The position numbers were made by a program, and so were the translations under genes. DNA of 5,826 nucleotides. It comes from Deltaproteobacteria bacterium (lineage in GTDB: Bacteria > JAUYMQ01). Each line of letters starts with the position of its first letter. Position 1 is the first letter of the stretch. Location: positions 1 to 5,826 of the forward strand of contig JAUYMQ010000133.1 in assembly GCA_030698575.1 (NCBI GenBank), given 5' to 3'. The notes below the pieces were generated by a model. It made no database searches. It saw nothing but the letters and a program-made list of their open reading frames with translations, and had not been told where the DNA came from. Below are positions 88-5,826 of this stretch, one piece after another.

Positions 88-1479
88 ATGAATTCCCATC
101 GCAGCCAGGGCGAGTTTCCTCCTGAGACTCGCACGGCACCGCTTACCGATGCGACTCGCCGGCACGCCGCCGAAGCTCCCAGGCAATGGCTGAAGGCGCT
201 ACTAAACGGGAATGGGTGGTTCGATCGCGCCGCCATTGTCCGGCACGTGGCGCTCTCTGCTGCTGCAGGCGCAGCTTATCTTTTTCGGGGCACACTGGTC
301 GCGCGCCCCGAGATCCTCTGGATCATCGCTGCCGCGTTGCTCCTGAACTGTCTGATCCTCCTTCTTCCGAAATCCACCAGAGGCCTGTCCGTAGCGCGGA
401 TTGCCTCGTCGGCCGCCGGGGTTTCCGGCTGGACGCTCCTCATCTACTTCACCGGGGGCATCACATCACCTTTTGCCGCGGGACTTGCGCTCGAGGTGGT
501 CCTGGCCGCCCGGACCTTCGGCTTGAACGGGATAGCGCCCGTCACGTTCGTTGCGACGTGCGGCCTCTGGCTGCAGCAGCTGCGGCTGGGGCTGGCGAAT
601 GCGGTGACCCCGCTCCTGGTGCAGACGTCCATGCTCCTGCTTCTCGGCGGCCTCATATTCTTCCTGGCGCGGTACTGGTCGCGCGAACAGCGGGCGCTTT
701 CCGACGAGGGGGAGCGCATCAGGCGCCGGCTCCTGACGCTGGAGGGGGAGCTTGCCGCGGCGCCTCGCATGGAGGAGATCGGCGAGAACGTGGCCAGGCT
801 CGCCCACGGGTGCAAGAACACGATCCACAGCCTGAAGGGGTTTGCAGCCCTCATCGAGCGGCACCTCCGGAACGACGACGAGAGCGCGCGCACGCTTGCC
901 GGGCTGCGCGCGGCGATCGACCAGCTGGAGGGGCTGGTGCGAAGCACCTTGCTCGCGGGCGGGGCGCAGGGCGCGGCGAGCGGCTCCACCGACGGGGAGC
1001 GGCTCGGAAAGCTGATGGAGGAGACGAGGATCGAATCGTCGTCGGCGTACCCGCAGGTTCAGTGGCGCGTCCTAGCAAACGGCGGAATGCCCGCGGTCGG
1101 GGTGCCCCCCGAGATCATCAAGGACGTGCTTCTCGAGCTGTGCACAAATGCGGCGGCGGCCGTGGAGACGGCCGTGGAGGCCCCGGGCTGCGTGACCCTC
1201 GAGACCTGCGCCCATGAGGCGTTCCTCTGCCTCCATGTGCGTGACGAGGGGTCAGGCATCGCTGAGGCGTCGAGGTCTCGAATCTTCGAACGCGGGTTCT
1301 CCACGAAGCCCGAGGGGCACGGACTGGGACTTTTTCTGTCTCGCCGCTCTCTCATGCTGCACGGCGGCGCGCTCGAGGCGAGACCCGCACCGCACGGGGG
1401 CGCGCTGTTCTGCATGCGTCTGCCGGTTGCCGGCGATCGCTCCCGCCCGCCCGGGCTCCCGCGGAGGGCCGCGCCATGA
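88..1479 (+). CDS. membrane sensor histidine kinase (NtrB/PilS-like, about six TM helices)
   Basis: Predicted inner-membrane histidine kinase of 463 aa that should phosphorylate the regulator encoded next. After a polar N-terminus, about six hydrophobic segments follow (roughly residues 49-67, 75-93, 101-121, 128-141, 148-166, 175-194) with no large periplasmic domain, so sensing is probably within the membrane. GGITSPF at 123-129 resembles the GGXXNPF motif of RegB-type sensors, with Ser for Asn. A charged helix leads to the H-box, with the likely phosphoacceptor His240 in LAHGCKN. The ATPase domain follows: N-box Asn354 (ELCTNAA), G1 DEGSGI at 386-391, F-box region IFERGFSTKP, and G2 GHGLGL at 410-415. 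The ATG at 88 is preferred because GAGGGG at 72-77 precedes it; an in-frame GTG at 22 would add 22 unremarkable residues. The 3' end overlaps the regulator gene by ATGA, indicating an operon. The ligand is unknown. The kinase class is certain; the PilS/RegB resemblance is by eye. Confidence 0.93.
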   Translation: MNSHRSQGEFPPETRTAPLTDATRRHAAEAPRQWLKALLNGNGWFDRAAIVRHVALSAAAGAAYLFRGTLVARPEILWIIAAALLLNCLILLLPKSTRGLSVARIASSAAGVSGWTLLIYFTGGITSPFAAGLALEVVLAARTFGLNGIAPVTFVATCGLWLQQLRLGLANAVTPLLVQTSMLLLLGGLIFFLARYWSREQRALSDEGERIRRRLLTLEGELAAAPRMEEIGENVARLAHGCKNTIHSLKGFAALIERHLRNDDESARTLAGLRAAIDQLEGLVRSTLLAGGAQGAASGSTDGERLGKLMEETRIESSSAYPQVQWRVLANGGMPAVGVPPEIIKDVLLELCTNAAAAVETAVEAPGCVTLETCAHEAFLCLHVRDEGSGIAEASRSRIFERGFSTKPEGHGLGLFLSRRSLMLHGGALEARPAPHGGALFCMRLPVAGDRSRPPGLPRRAAP

Positions 1480-2852
1480 CGACCCCCGCTATCCTGGCCG
1501 TCGAGGACGACGCCGCGGCGGCGGAACTCCTTCGGCTCGCGCTCGAGGGTGAAGGATTCGAAGTCCGCCTGGCCGCAAACGGGATCGAAGCGATCCTCGC
1601 GATGGAAACCGCCCTGCCGGACCTGGTGATCTCGGATCTCAGGATGCCGGAGATGGACGGGCTCACGCTTCTCTCTCGCGTCAAGCAACGCTGGCCCGCG
1701 GTTCCCTTCATCCTCGCGAGCGTGGAGGACGACATCGCGACGGTCGTCGAGGCCGTTCAGATGGGCGCGGTCAACTACCTGGTGAAACCCTTCTCGCCGG
1801 CGCTCCTGACCCTGGCCGTGCGAAAAGCGCTCCACAAGTCGCCCCCGCGCCAGGCCGGGGACGGCGCGCTCGGCGAGATCGTCGGCCGTAGCAGGCAGAT
1901 CGTGGAGGTGCGCCACGCAGTCGCCGTGGCGGCGCGGAGCGACGTGAACGTCCTGATAACGGGAGAGACCGGAACCGGAAAGGAACTGGTGGCCCGCGCC
2001 ATTCATCGATGTTCAAAGCTATCGCTCGGTCCCTTCGTAGCCGAGAACTGCGCCGCCATCCCGCCGGAACTCTTCGAGAGCCAGTTTTTCGGGCACCGCC
2101 GGGGCGCCTTCACCGGCGCGGATCGCGATCACGCGGGCCTTCTCCAGCGCGCGGACGGCGGCGTGCTCTTCCTGGACGAGCTCGAGAGCCTCGGTGCGAT
2201 TCACCAGGCGAAGCTGCTCCGGGTCCTGGACGACGGGGAGATCCGGCCGGTCGGCTCGAGCGAGGCGCGACAGATTTCGGTGCGGTTTCTGGCGGCGACC
2301 AACCGGGATTCGCAGTCGATGATTCGAGCAGGCCAGTTGCGCGAGGACCTTTACTACCGCCTGCGGGGATTCGAGATTCACCTGCCCCCGTTGAATGCGC
2401 GCCGTGATGATATTCCCCTCCTGGCGGCGCACTTTCTCCGAGGGGAAGCGAGCGCCCTGACGCCGGAGGCTCTGAAAGTCCTCCGGGCACGGTCATGGCC
2501 GGGCAACGTGAGGGAGCTGCAGAACGCCATCCGGAGCGCCGAGAGTCTCGCGGCCGGGGCACCGATTGGCGTGGAGCATCTGTCTTTCGGCGCCGCGTTC
2601 CCGAACCCGGAAGCAACCGCGGTCGCAGAGCCGTGCCGGCTCCTCCGCGCGGCCGAGCGCGGGGCGATTGTCGAGGCGCTTCGCGTCTCCAACGGCAAGC
2701 GGAGCGAGGCGGCGCGGAGGCTCGGGATCGATCGCTCGACCCTCAGGCGCAAGTTGCGCGAGTTCGCAATCGATCCCGCGCCGCCATCGGCCGATCCGTC
2801 ACCCCCGGCCGGCCCGCCCCCGAAGCCCCCCCGGGACCAGCTATTTAATTGA
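1476..2852 (+). CDS. sigma-54-dependent NtrC-family response regulator
   Basis: 458-aa transcription activator with the full NtrC layout. The receiver domain (about 3-120) has acidic pocket E10/D11/D12, phosphoacceptor Asp54 (SDLRMP), switch Ser82, Tyr101 and Lys104. The AAA+ domain (about 133-370) has Walker A GETGTGKE at 163-170, the sigma-54-contacting GAFTGA loop at 210-215, Walker B VLFLDE with D234/E235, sensor I near Asn276, the arginine-finger region REDLYYRL at 289-296, and sensor II in WPGNVREL at 341-348. A Fis-type helix-turn-helix lies at about 392-431 (SEAARRLGIDRSTLRRKL), followed by a proline-rich tail. All key residues are intact, so it should be a phosphorylation-dependent ATPase that remodels sigma-54 RNA polymerase. 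GGAGGG at 1463-1468, inside the end of the kinase gene, is its ribosome binding site, 7 nt from the ATG. Overlap with the kinase implies co-expression. The nearest evident target is the sigma-54 promoter about 140 bp past its stop. The specific subfamily (PilR, PrsR or other) was not determined. Confidence 0.97.
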   Translation: MTTPAILAVEDDAAAAELLRLALEGEGFEVRLAANGIEAILAMETALPDLVISDLRMPEMDGLTLLSRVKQRWPAVPFILASVEDDIATVVEAVQMGAVNYLVKPFSPALLTLAVRKALHKSPPRQAGDGALGEIVGRSRQIVEVRHAVAVAARSDVNVLITGETGTGKELVARAIHRCSKLSLGPFVAENCAAIPPELFESQFFGHRRGAFTGADRDHAGLLQRADGGVLFLDELESLGAIHQAKLLRVLDDGEIRPVGSSEARQISVRFLAATNRDSQSMIRAGQLREDLYYRLRGFEIHLPPLNARRDDIPLLAAHFLRGEASALTPEALKVLRARSWPGNVRELQNAIRSAESLAAGAPIGVEHLSFGAAFPNPEATAVAEPCRLLRAAERGAIVEALRVSNGKRSEAARRLGIDRSTLRRKLREFAIDPAPPSADPSPPAGPPPKPPRDQLFN

Positions 2853-2938
2853 TCGCCGCCTCGCGGCCCGGGGGGACTGGCCCGGCGCAAAACGCACCGC
2901 GCCTGCGGCGATTCGCCCCAGCCGTTTCTTGGTGGCGT

Positions 2939-2956
2939 CTTCCGGCCGTCCGGAAG
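2939..2956. promoter_or_regulatory. candidate upstream activator site (7-bp dyad)
   Basis: Perfect inverted repeat CTTCCGG-N4-CCGGAAG, 18 bp in all, centred about 71 bp upstream of the predicted start of transcription of the sigma-54 promoter. Fis-type helix-turn-helix dimers of NtrC-family regulators bind such dyads upstream of their promoters, so this is the best visible candidate site for the adjacent regulator. It is single-copy here, whereas many activator sites are paired, and it is somewhat closer to the promoter than is common. A transcript hairpin is the alternative, but no T-tract follows. Confidence 0.45.
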
Positions 2957-2992
2957 CTCATGAAAATACCTTTGAATTCGAAATCCGACGTT

Positions 2993-3008
2993 TGGCACGC
3001 GCCTTGCT
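2993..3008 (+). promoter_or_regulatory. sigma-54 (RpoN) promoter, -24/-12
   Basis: TGGCACG, four bases, then TTGCT: an exact match to the sigma-54 consensus TGGCACG-N4-TTGCW, preceded by the favoured T. The invariant GG (2994-2995) and GC (3006-3007) are separated by exactly 10 bases. Transcription should begin near 3019, giving a leader of about 78 nt before the ATG at 3097. An AT-rich stretch (about 2958-2985), unusual for this GC-rich window, lies directly upstream and could favour bending between an activator site and the promoter. This promoter type needs an AAA+ activator with GAFTGA, which the preceding gene encodes. Confidence 0.9.
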
Positions 3009-3084
3009 CTTGGACTCTGCTACCACGCTGAGGATGGGCTGCCGTCTTGTCTTCACCGCGGTTCTTCCCAACGTAATTAACCAC

Positions 3085-3089
3085 AGGAG
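3085..3089 (+). promoter_or_regulatory. ribosome binding site deciding the start at 3097
   Basis: AGGAG, 7 nt before the ATG at 3097. The frame is open far upstream (to 2566 and through the promoter), including an in-frame ATG at 3034, but that ATG has no properly spaced ribosome binding site. The start at 3097 also places a signal peptide exactly at the N-terminus. Confidence 0.85.
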
Positions 3090-3096
3090 TGCAACT

Positions 3097-3585
3097 ATGA
3101 GAGCCATGCTCAAGACGAGCCTGATTGTCCTTGCCGTCGGCCTTGCGCTGACCTTTGCCTACGGGGATGCTTACGCGGCTGGATGCTGCCAGAATCAGTC
3201 GCCGTCGAACGGCCAGGGACAGGACGACGACCTCAACTCCGGGCCGCTTCCCGATCCGGGCTGTACCACGGAACCGGCTGCAAGCCCTGACTGCTACCGT
3301 TTCGACAACTTGCAGGAGTTCTGGAATGACAGCATCTGCACGGGGTCTGACCCGGACGGCGCAGGACCAGCAACCGGAGATTCATGCCTGGAAAACGCCG
3401 ATTGCACGGATAGCGGTGTCCCTGCCGCCTGTTGTACAGGATCTGGCACTGGAACCTGCGGCGTGACGGACTCGGAGCCAGCGTTCGTGCCTGCCCTTTC
3501 GACATGGGGAGTTCTGCTGTTCCTCATGCTGGGTGGTGGGTTGATCCTGCTCCGGCGGTCTCGGTCCGGGATGTCGGGCGTGTAG
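3097..3585 (+). CDS. exported cysteine-rich protein with IPTL-CTERM-type sorting tail
   Basis: 162-aa small exported protein of unknown molecular function. Residues 1-27 form a Sec signal peptide (basic start, hydrophobic core, likely cut AYA/A). The mature part is acidic, rich in Gly, Ser, Asp and Pro, and carries ten cysteines (30, 31, 56, 66, 81, 97, 103, 112, 113, 121), suggesting disulfides or metal binding; the last six are spaced C-x15-C-x5-C-x8-CC-x7-C. The C-terminus is a tripartite sorting signal: VPALSTWG at 131-138, a hydrophobic helix to about 152, then RRSR. It matches the IPTLxxWG (IPTL-CTERM) class assigned to exosortase H, with V for I and A for T. No exosortase is in the window. 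The gene follows a consensus sigma-54 promoter and an NtrC-type regulator gene and ends before a strong hairpin, so it looks monocistronic. Its base composition looks less GC-rich than the flanking genes. AAGC at 27-30 weakly resembles a lipobox, making a lipoprotein a less likely alternative. Confidence 0.85.
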   Translation: MRAMLKTSLIVLAVGLALTFAYGDAYAAGCCQNQSPSNGQGQDDDLNSGPLPDPGCTTEPAASPDCYRFDNLQEFWNDSICTGSDPDGAGPATGDSCLENADCTDSGVPAACCTGSGTGTCGVTDSEPAFVPALSTWGVLLFLMLGGGLILLRRSRSGMSGV

Positions 3586-3601
3586 GTTGGCGGACTGGTC
3601 G

Positions 3602-3640
3602 GGTTGACGTGTACCCTGTTGTGAGGGTCCCGCGTCAGCC
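3602..3640 (+). other. stem-loop in the 3' untranslated region
   Basis: Seventeen bases after the stop codon, GGTTGACG (3602-3609) pairs with CGTCAGCC (3633-3640) with one G-T wobble. Inside, ACCCT (3613-3617) pairs with AGGGT (3624-3628) across a 6-nt loop, leaving a small internal loop. No T-run follows, so it is unlikely to terminate alone; it may stabilise the mRNA end. Confidence 0.5.
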
Positions 3641-3653
3641 TATTCAGGAGGAT

Positions 3654-3700
3654 GAACTCCCGCCTCGGAAAGCCTTTCGATTGGCCCGAGGCGGGAGTTC
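3654..3700 (+). terminator. likely transcription terminator of the sorted-protein gene
   Basis: Perfect 15-bp inverted repeat: GAACTCCCGCCTCGG at 3654-3668 and its complement at 3686-3700. The 17-nt centre can add a GCC/GGC pairing beyond a 3-nt AAA bulge. The downstream arm runs into TTCTTGTT, a weak T-rich tract. It lies 68 bp past the stop codon and 57 bp before the end of the convergent gene, as expected for a terminator between convergent genes. The poor T-run leaves open a role as an mRNA-stabilising hairpin or a Rho-assisted stop. Confidence 0.75.
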
Positions 3701-3757
3701 TTGTTCGCTCAAACCGCGCTCTCTGTCCGTTGCTCTTCAGCCATCCACGCCTAGAGG

Positions 3758-5826
3758 CTATCGCGAAACCACCGTACGTAGGATCGAAGCCGAGAGCAAG
3801 TAAAGTGCGCAGGCCAGCGACACGACGGTCCGCTGGCCCGCCTCCATGGCCACCAGCGTCGCAAGCACCGCGCCCACGACCGATGCGCAGCCGTTGACAC
3901 CCCACGCCCAGGGGACGAGCGACGGCGCGCGGCGCGCGAGCATCGCCAGGCCGAGGGGGAAGGGCATCCCCATGAAGAAGGCGAGCGGCGCGATGAGCGT
4001 GAGCGAGAGGGCGGCCTTCGCAAGGCCGGGCCAGCCCGAGGCGGCCCGGAAGAGCGGGGAGAGGGCCGCCAGGTAGACGAGTGCCAGGAACGCGATCGCG
4101 AGCACCGCGGCGGCGATGGCCCGGCCGGTTCCTCGATCGGGCGGTGCCGGGCGGGGTTCGGGAGCGTCCACGGCGTCCTCCCCGCCGCCAATCGACGCGA
4201 AGCCGAGGCCCCTGCGCGCCAGCCGCGCCCGCCAGCGCGCCGAGGCGCCGCTCCCGAGCCCCGCGAAGACGAGGAAGCCCGCCAGGACGACGGCAACGGA
4301 ATAGAGGGGGTGGCCGAGAAAGAGCGCGAAGCGCTGGATGAAGGCCATCTCGATCGCGATGAACGCGAGGCCGATCGCGACGAAGTAGACCCCGCTCCGC
4401 CGCCGGAGCGCGCGCGAGGCGTCCTCCCGCGGGAGCGCGGGGAGCGGCAGGAGGATCAGCAGGAAGCTCGCGAGCGCCGCCTGCGCCAGCGTTGCGAGCA
4501 AGACGAGATAGCCCCACTCGCCGAGCCCCATCCCCCCCGACTCCCGCATCGAGAGCATCTCGCGCACCGTGCCGAGCTTCAGGAACTGATGGAAGTAGGG
4601 GCGGTCGTCCGTTGCGGGGCGCAGGTCGAACTTGTAGCGATCGAGGAACGCGGCGCGTTCCGGCCCGAGCAGAGCCCGGGCGCCGGCCGAGAAGGTGTCG
4701 TCGTCGAGCACGTTGAAGCGATTGCCGAGATCCGCGCCCACGCCCGGCGCGTAAGCCACGTCGAAGGAGCGGGACTCGCAGAAATCCACGAGCGCGGCGA
4801 CCTCGGCGGGCGTGAAGGGCGCGCGCTTGACCAGCAGCGTGGCGGTCCGGAAGCTGCGTATGAGGGCGAGGTGCCGCGCGGGTTCGCGAGCGCCGGCGCG
4901 CGAGAGCGCTTCGGCGGCGGTCGCCACGAGGCGCAGGCTGTCGCGCGGCGGGATCTTGACCCAGCGCGTGATGGCGAGAACGCCGCTATCGGCAAGGCGC
5001 GCCAGGTAGGCCTCGAAGGCCTCCACCGTGTAGAGGTAGCTCTCTTGCGAGGCCTGGAGCCCGGCGGCCGAAGCACCGAAGGCGTCGAGCAGCGCGATCT
5101 GGATGAGATCGTGGCGCCCCTGCGACGAGGCGACGAAGCCGCGCCCTTCGGCGATGCGCAGCTTCACGCGCGCGTCATCGAAGGGATTGCCCATGCGAGG
5201 GGCCTCCCGGCGAACCATCTCGATCACGCCGGGGTTCAGCTCGACCGCCGTGATGTGGCGCGCACCGTGAGATCGCGCCAGCAACACCTCGGCGCCCGTG
5301 CCTGCGCCGAGCACGAGCACCGACGGTTCGTCGAGTAGCGCGTAGGGCGCCGCCGAGGACTGCCAGTCGAGATAGGCGAGCGGCTCGAAGCGCCCGTCGA
5401 AGTGCGTAAGCGCGCCGAGAAGCTCGCCGTCGGAAAAGAGCGCGTGCTGCGGCGGCGGTCCGGCGGGGGCCGCGAGCGAGAGCCCCGGCGCGTGGCGAAA
5501 GGGGACCTCCGGCGAGTCCACGAGCACCAGCGAGGCCAGCGGGCTGGAGGCCTGCCCCACTGCCCGTGCCCCCGACACGGCCAGGGCCTGGGGGAGCCCC
5601 TTGTAGGGCGAGGGGCGGGGGGCGAGCCAGCCCCCGGGCCAGGCCAGCGGGGTCGCCAGAGCGACAAGCGCGAGCGCCACGACCGCCGGCCGCGGCGGGG
5701 CTGCGCTCCGCCGGTCCAGCGCGGCGAGCCCGGCCCCCAGGAGGCCCAGGAGCGCTATCGCGCGCAGGCAGCTTTCGGGGGGCAGGACGAAGAGCCCCGC
5801 GATGACCGCGGCGGCGCCCAGGCCCC
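3758..5826 (-). CDS. polytopic membrane protein with spermidine-synthase-like domain (5' end outside window)
   Basis: Convergent - strand gene ending with TAG at 3758-3760. The frame stays open to the right edge. The GTG at 5678-5680 is probably internal, since 5681-5826 adds a hydrophobic, helix-like stretch without a stop. Counting from that GTG (640 residues), a spermidine-synthase/methyltransferase-like Rossmann domain occupies about 75-365: nucleotide-binding loop GAGTGA at 125-130, Glu147 in AVELNP, then QESYLYTVEAF at 212-222 and TDDRPYFH at 357-364. About seven membrane helices follow (389-413, 430-450, 459-480, 520-542, 557-581, 592-612, 617-637), with FLGHPLYSVAVVL and GMPFPLGLA typical of fused membrane/spermidine-synthase proteins. 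The DSTDP-like catalytic motif of true aminopropyltransferases is not visible; the equivalent stretch reads IQIALLDAFG, so aminopropyl transfer should not be assumed. The substrate is unknown. No link to the + strand genes is evident beyond adjacency. Confidence 0.88.
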   Translation of the reverse strand, partial: GLGAAAVIAGLFVLPPESCLRAIALLGLLGAGLAALDRRSAAPPRPAVVALALVALATPLAWPGGWLAPRPSPYKGLPQALAVSGARAVGQASSPLASLVLVDSPEVPFRHAPGLSLAAPAGPPPQHALFSDGELLGALTHFDGRFEPLAYLDWQSSAAPYALLDEPSVLVLGAGTGAEVLLARSHGARHITAVELNPGVIEMVRREAPRMGNPFDDARVKLRIAEGRGFVASSQGRHDLIQIALLDAFGASAAGLQASQESYLYTVEAFEAYLARLADSGVLAITRWVKIPPRDSLRLVATAAEALSRAGAREPARHLALIRSFRTATLLVKRAPFTPAEVAALVDFCESRSFDVAYAPGVGADLGNRFNVLDDDTFSAGARALLGPERAAFLDRYKFDLRPATDDRPYFHQFLKLGTVREMLSMRESGGMGLGEWGYLVLLATLAQAALASFLLILLPLPALPREDASRALRRRSGVYFVAIGLAFIAIEMAFIQRFALFLGHPLYSVAVVLAGFLVFAGLGSGASARWRARLARRGLGFASIGGGEDAVDAPEPRPAPPDRGTGRAIAAAVLAIAFLALVYLAALSPLFRAASGWPGLAKAALSLTLIAPLAFFMGMPFPLGLAMLARRAPSLVPWAWGVNGCASVVGAVLATLVAMEAGQRTVVSLACALYLLSASILRTVVSR

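Follow-up and report, generated by a model that had tools for sequence, protein, structure and literature searches.

A putative two-component sigma-54 switch beside the gene for an exported, probably sorted protein in a deltaproteobacterial genome

The locus

The window analysed here is a complete contig of 5,826 bp (JAUYMQ010000133.1, C584 in our numbering) from assembly GCA_030698575.1 of a Deltaproteobacteria bacterium, a genome of 4.13 Mb in 653 contigs. On its forward strand, a histidine kinase gene (88-1479) is followed by the gene for an NtrC-type response regulator and sigma-54 activator (1476-2852) and, after a gap of 244 bp, by the gene for a small exported protein (3097-3585). The gap contains a consensus sigma-54 promoter (2993-3008), and the genome encodes both RpoN and exosortase H. 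Judging from sequence, this arrangement is probably best explained by a local two-component switch that drives one exported and probably sorted protein.

The kinase was assigned from the open reading frame (ORF) list and from its HATPase_c domain (62.7 bits), with a weak HisKA match (18.3 bits). Its start is uncertain, being either 88 or an alternative GTG at 22, with the frame open to the contig start; from either start to 1479, it falls outside the stretch given in the original prediction. The protein has an N-terminal sensor with several transmembrane (TM) helices (hydrophobic segments at residues 68-97, 117-135 and 167-196), an H-box (LAHGCKNTIHSLKGF) and an intact HATPase, and the domain search of the window proteins detected no PAS domain in it. 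The kinase and regulator genes overlap via ATGA, and the regulator is regarded as translationally coupled. The regulator (458 amino acids) was identified from the ORF list and the domain search; it contains Response_reg (95.9 bits), Sigma54_activat (211.6 bits), AAA_lid_14 (58.5 bits) and the Fis-type helix-turn-helix HTH_8 (48.1 bits). GAFTGA, the Walker motifs and the phospho-acceptor Asp are all present, in keeping with the intact, GAFTGA-bearing regulator originally predicted.

The output gene (3097-3585, forward strand) is preceded by an AGGAG ribosome site and encodes a Cys-rich protein of 162 amino acids with hydrophobic ends. The signal peptide, MRAMLKTSLIVLAVGLALTFAYGDAYA-A, ends AYA-A, the mature part has 10 Cys, and the C-terminus reads VPALSTWG-TM-RRSR, an IPTL-like tail (VPALSTWGVLLFLMLGGGLILLRRSR). 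The domain search found no Pfam family for this protein. Among 98 genomes no homologue was found beyond short Cys-motif or chance matches, and none was found in viral contigs. The Cys motif NADCTDSGVPAACCTGSGTGTC (window 3370-3465) recurs in a 1627-amino-acid secreted protein (L120, C317:6708-6791) on the contig that carries an exopolysaccharide (EPS)/exosortase locus, with 54% over 28 residues.

Folding of 3585-3720 yields a GC-rich 14-bp hairpin followed by CTTGTT (3655-3699, forward strand), a terminator-like element between convergent genes that the consensus terminator scan, with its loop limit of 8 bases, did not pick up. Because of this hairpin and the convergent neighbour, the output gene appears to be monocistronic on its downstream side. 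The neighbour (3758-5824, minus strand) encodes a membrane protein with a spermidine-synthase-like domain (Spermine_synth, 30.6 bits) and is probably not part of the module.

The sigma-54 promoter

The promoter TGGCACGCGCCTTGCT (2993-3008, forward strand) agrees with the -24/-12 consensus at 12/12 positions. It reads TGGCACG-N4-TTGCT, with GG at 2994-2995 and GC at 3006-3007, so that the exact GG-N10-GC spacing claimed originally is confirmed. The genome-wide scan proposed as a check returned more sites than expected by chance: perfect matches to the strict pattern TGGCACG-N4-TTGCW number 15, compared with 1 when the pattern is reversed as a control, and for a wider version with TGGCAYR the counts are 26 and 2. 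Genes 3' of these sites, named by eye from their translations, encode the ammonium transporter AmtB and two pilins, which are typical sigma-54 targets, three NtrC-type regulators, and SpvB-like secreted and other exported proteins. The RpoN of this genome scores 449 bits, over the cut-off, and is 58% identical over its full length to the nearest among the named genomes compared. Taken together, the enrichment of strict sites, the types of downstream gene and the presence of RpoN suggest that the site at 2993-3008 belongs to a surface-gene-rich sigma-54 regulon, of the sort described for sigma-54 generally (PMC3162934). Four secreted SpvB-like proteins (L006, L009, L013 and L021) are each encoded immediately 3' of a consensus sigma-54 site. 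A promoter scan found no sigma-70-like promoter within 2800-3800.

Upstream of the promoter lies a perfect inverted repeat, CTTCCGG-CCGT-CCGGAAG (2939-2956), which is a candidate activator binding site (upstream activating sequence). It lies some 70 bp upstream of where the transcript is predicted to start (~3019) and is the sole inverted repeat with arms of at least 7 bp found in the intergenic region. The genome holds a single perfect copy, and copies with one mismatch occur at chance level. A lone copy would be compatible with a single target, but it is no independent proof of one.

Occurrence of the layout

The regulator's 80 best homologues in named genomes were surveyed for a strict same-strand sigma-54 site no farther than 450 bp 3' of the match. 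Such a site is present at 14/80 loci; many of these come from related genomes and are therefore not 14 independent cases. In density terms, 14 sites fall in the 35.6 kb 3' of regulators versus 4 in 1.77 Mb elsewhere, a 174-fold difference. At three of the 14 loci, the gene that comes next codes for a secreted protein: a long protein with heme-like CxxCH motifs at L040 and L049, and an EF-hand-like protein at L060. A module made up of regulator, sigma-54 site and a cytoplasmic protein of 150-156 amino acids (MKAFTAKLVDLTQKN...) is recurrent in Smithella and other deltaproteobacterial genomes (L042, L044, L050, L062, L063, L065, L076 and L078). The idea that the homologue loci are pilSR-pilA loci was dropped, since the proteins encoded next to the regulators are not pilins except at L103, where a pilin-like gene was recognised by eye among the ORFs. 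An automatic prepilin search came back empty, missing even this gene of L103, whose leader differs from the pattern, and was not used as evidence.

Within the genome itself, about 8 genes for bacterial enhancer-binding proteins (bEBPs) are followed within 630 bp by a site matching at least 10/12 positions, the next genes encoding a pilin, a pilin-like protein, an SpvB-like protein and others. At one locus (L200, C253:898-3865), a bEBP gene precedes two tandem pilin genes that have their own sigma-54 sites at C253:2484 and 3232. In Desulfovibrio, bEBP genes are in many cases co-localised with their sigma-54 promoter, and sigma-54 operons beside a bEBP gene are treated as the most probable targets of that bEBP (PMC4641369). 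Because the layout recurs in this way, and because ZraSR-ZraP and PilSR-PilA are published, the module is of an already known kind. As a system it is not new in kind: the arrangement is commonplace, and the one unusual point is the type of protein driven. The original suggestion of a compact module not yet described is thus not supported.

No convincing homologue of the sensor part of the kinase turned up in 386 sampled genomes or in 195 genomes from the phylum to which one metagenome-assembled genome with a similar RpoN belongs; the weak matches were antisense or in other frames.

The proposed circuit

In the reading we favour, the membrane kinase would sense an envelope or external signal and phosphorylate the NtrC-type regulator. 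The phosphorylated regulator would bind upstream of 2993, perhaps at the inverted repeat, and drive open-complex formation by RpoN polymerase at TGGCAC-N5-TTGC. A single mRNA encoding the small Cys-rich protein would result. The protein would then be exported by Sec, its C-terminal TM tail would anchor it in the inner membrane, and exosortase H would probably process it to the surface. Phosphotransfer, the binding site, tail cleavage and the final location are predictions, as is control of the promoter by the regulator, which we infer because the two adjoin.

Several observations weigh against this reading. When named genomes were scanned with the regulator, only homologues of 34-46% came up, and no orthologous locus. 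The consensus terminator scan found no terminator-like site between the regulator gene and 3097, and transcription of the kinase operon may therefore run on into the output gene; the original claim of one monocistronic gene with a signal peptide accordingly stands for the signal peptide and the downstream end, and is less certain for the upstream side. The output tail, tested in isolation, scores 11.1 bits with the IPTL-CTERM model TIGR04174 and does not reach the cut-off of 20.5. No second copy of the inverted repeat was found beside a strong sigma-54 promoter in a genome-wide search. Finally, the genome has about 18 convincing bEBP genes, and another of these proteins could act at 2993-3008.

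This last point leads to an alternative that we consider unlikely, namely that the promoter is real but is run by one or more other bEBPs, while the adjacent pair controls other genes and its adjacency is incidental. Such a scheme fits the number of bEBP genes alongside 26 sigma-54-like sites, the finding that the candidate binding repeat is not common to other sigma-54 promoters, and the situation in D. vulgaris, where regulator targets are often overlapping or remote (PMC3333781). It is countered by how strongly sigma-54 sites are enriched immediately 3' of the regulator homologues and by the co-localisation seen in Desulfovibrio (PMC4641369), both of which argue for control by the neighbouring regulator.

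The C-terminal tail and exosortase H

Exosortase H is by established family knowledge the enzyme predicted to serve IPTL tails, as the original name of the TIGR04177 model indicates. The gene found here (C634, L124:377-943, minus strand) scores 110.7 bits with that model versus a cut-off of 86. Two other proteins of the genome exceed the TIGR04174 cut-off, and a textbook-like tail written as a control scores 45. A tail profile was also built from six tails, five from this genome and one hand-written from the family pattern. Its matches to its own seed members are circular; outside the seed, it finds a tail on C151 at 2e-4 and, more weakly, VPALSGWG on C398 and VPALSPEG on C55. In Methylomirabilis, an S-layer protein of the IPTL-CTERM type has been described (PMC8671808).

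The C-terminal segment could instead be a plain membrane anchor, in which case the protein would stay in the inner membrane. This is the rival to be taken most seriously, yet it is still doubtful. The sub-cut-off score speaks for it, as does the fact that several tail models match the segment equally weakly. On the other hand, an IPxLS-type motif, W-G, a TM helix and an Arg-rich end are all present, and the genome has a gene for exosortase H as well as further proteins with IPTL-like tails. With these present, sorting is plausible, and the output protein may plausibly be sorted via exosortase H despite the low score of its tail. The original description of an IPTL-type sorting tail is thus upheld as regards motif, TM helix and Arg-rich end, but not as regards membership of the modelled family.

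Other observations on the sorting machinery of this genome may be recorded here. The exosortase H gene stands in a row with genes for two DsbA/thioredoxin-like exported proteins (L124, C634:377-3052, minus strand), and tandem PEP-CTERM paralogues lie on the opposite strand of C634. A separate EpsH/EpsI exosortase is encoded in the EPS locus on C317. Three RHS/YD-repeat-like proteins, L164 (C613:2801-2881), L165 (C121:8366-8440) and L166 (C151:265-348), have an IPALS/VPALS-TM-Arg segment in the middle of the chain, 129-341 residues short of the end, which recalls the NCBIfam 'midcut-by-XrtH' family.

Relation to known systems

PEP-CTERM genes have been known to be under sigma-54 since 2006. Sigma-54 sites precede 99/167 proteobacterial PEP-CTERM genes, mostly in single-gene operons (PMC1569441), and pepA has been shown to depend on RpoN and to have a -24 element reading TGGCAC (PMC9850573). 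Like PrsK-PrsR, the window combines a kinase and an NtrC-type regulator with a sigma-54 promoter before the gene for a probably sorted protein. However, the kinase scores 48 bits with PrsK (TIGR02916, cut-off 300) and the regulator 290.7 bits with PrsR (TIGR02915, cut-off 502.6), so that the pair falls below both cut-offs, and the tail is IPTL-like. The suggestion that the kinase is of a type different from PrsK is borne out by these scores. A separate PrsR-like regulator (407 bits vs a cut-off of 503) is encoded in the EPS/exosortase locus on C317.

A further difference from PrsK-PrsR is that the window concerns one local gene and not a family-wide regulon. The upstream check covered the four further IPTL-like genes whose upstream DNA could be read (on C335, C349, C55 and C121), the remainder being cut by contig ends. 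None of the four (0/4) is preceded by a sigma-54 site matching at least 10/12 positions, and an IPTL-wide sigma-54 regulon was rejected. Among the IPTL-like genes readable upstream, that of the window stands alone, and the original notion of an IPTL-CTERM counterpart of PrsK/PrsR is not sustained. A PEP-CTERM gene on C335 (L129 2563-3423) has an 11/12 sigma-54 site, TGGCACGGAATCTGCT, just upstream.

ZraSR-ZraP (HydHG) of E. coli and Salmonella shares with the window a membrane kinase, a sigma-54 NtrC-type regulator and a single exported-protein gene under sigma-54, and has few direct targets (zraP, zraSR and mgtA) as determined by ChIP-exo, a chromatin immunoprecipitation method (PMC7657598). 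ZraP is a free periplasmic chaperone, whereas the window protein has a C-terminal TM sorting-like tail. With 326 bits against a cut-off of 760 for the ZraR model, the regulator is not a ZraR orthologue.

PilS-PilR-pilA resembles the window in its multi-TM kinase, its NtrC-type regulator and its sigma-54 promoter before a surface-protein gene, and the same layout with pilins occurs in this genome (C253 and C292). It differs in its output, which is not a pilin in the window; neither a prepilin motif in the output protein nor pil genes in the window were found. The published feedback between PilS and PilA (PMC6058289) raises the possibility, improbable in our judgement, that the unprocessed tail-anchored protein holds the kinase off until export releases it. 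Several kinase TM helices, the TM tail of the output and a TGGITSPF segment like that of the PilS beside pilR in L103 would agree with this. That likeness, in the sensor part, is weak and comes from a comparison of two sequences (pairwise E 0.003), and the kinase lacks a detected PAS domain. More speculative still, and to be given very little weight, is a dedicated, sorting-coupled analogue of PilS-PilA for one protein sorted by exosortase H, in which the kinase would sense unsorted, tail-anchored output in the inner membrane and tune sigma-54 transcription to sorting capacity.

Significance

The papers searched included none on the control of proteins of the exosortase H route. With the local switch favoured here, a protein of this little-studied sorting route would be tied compactly to two-component sigma-54 control. 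More generally, the series of regulator, sigma-54 promoter and single neighbour gene recurs within this genome and at the loci of regulator homologues elsewhere, and it helps to assign targets to orphan regulators.

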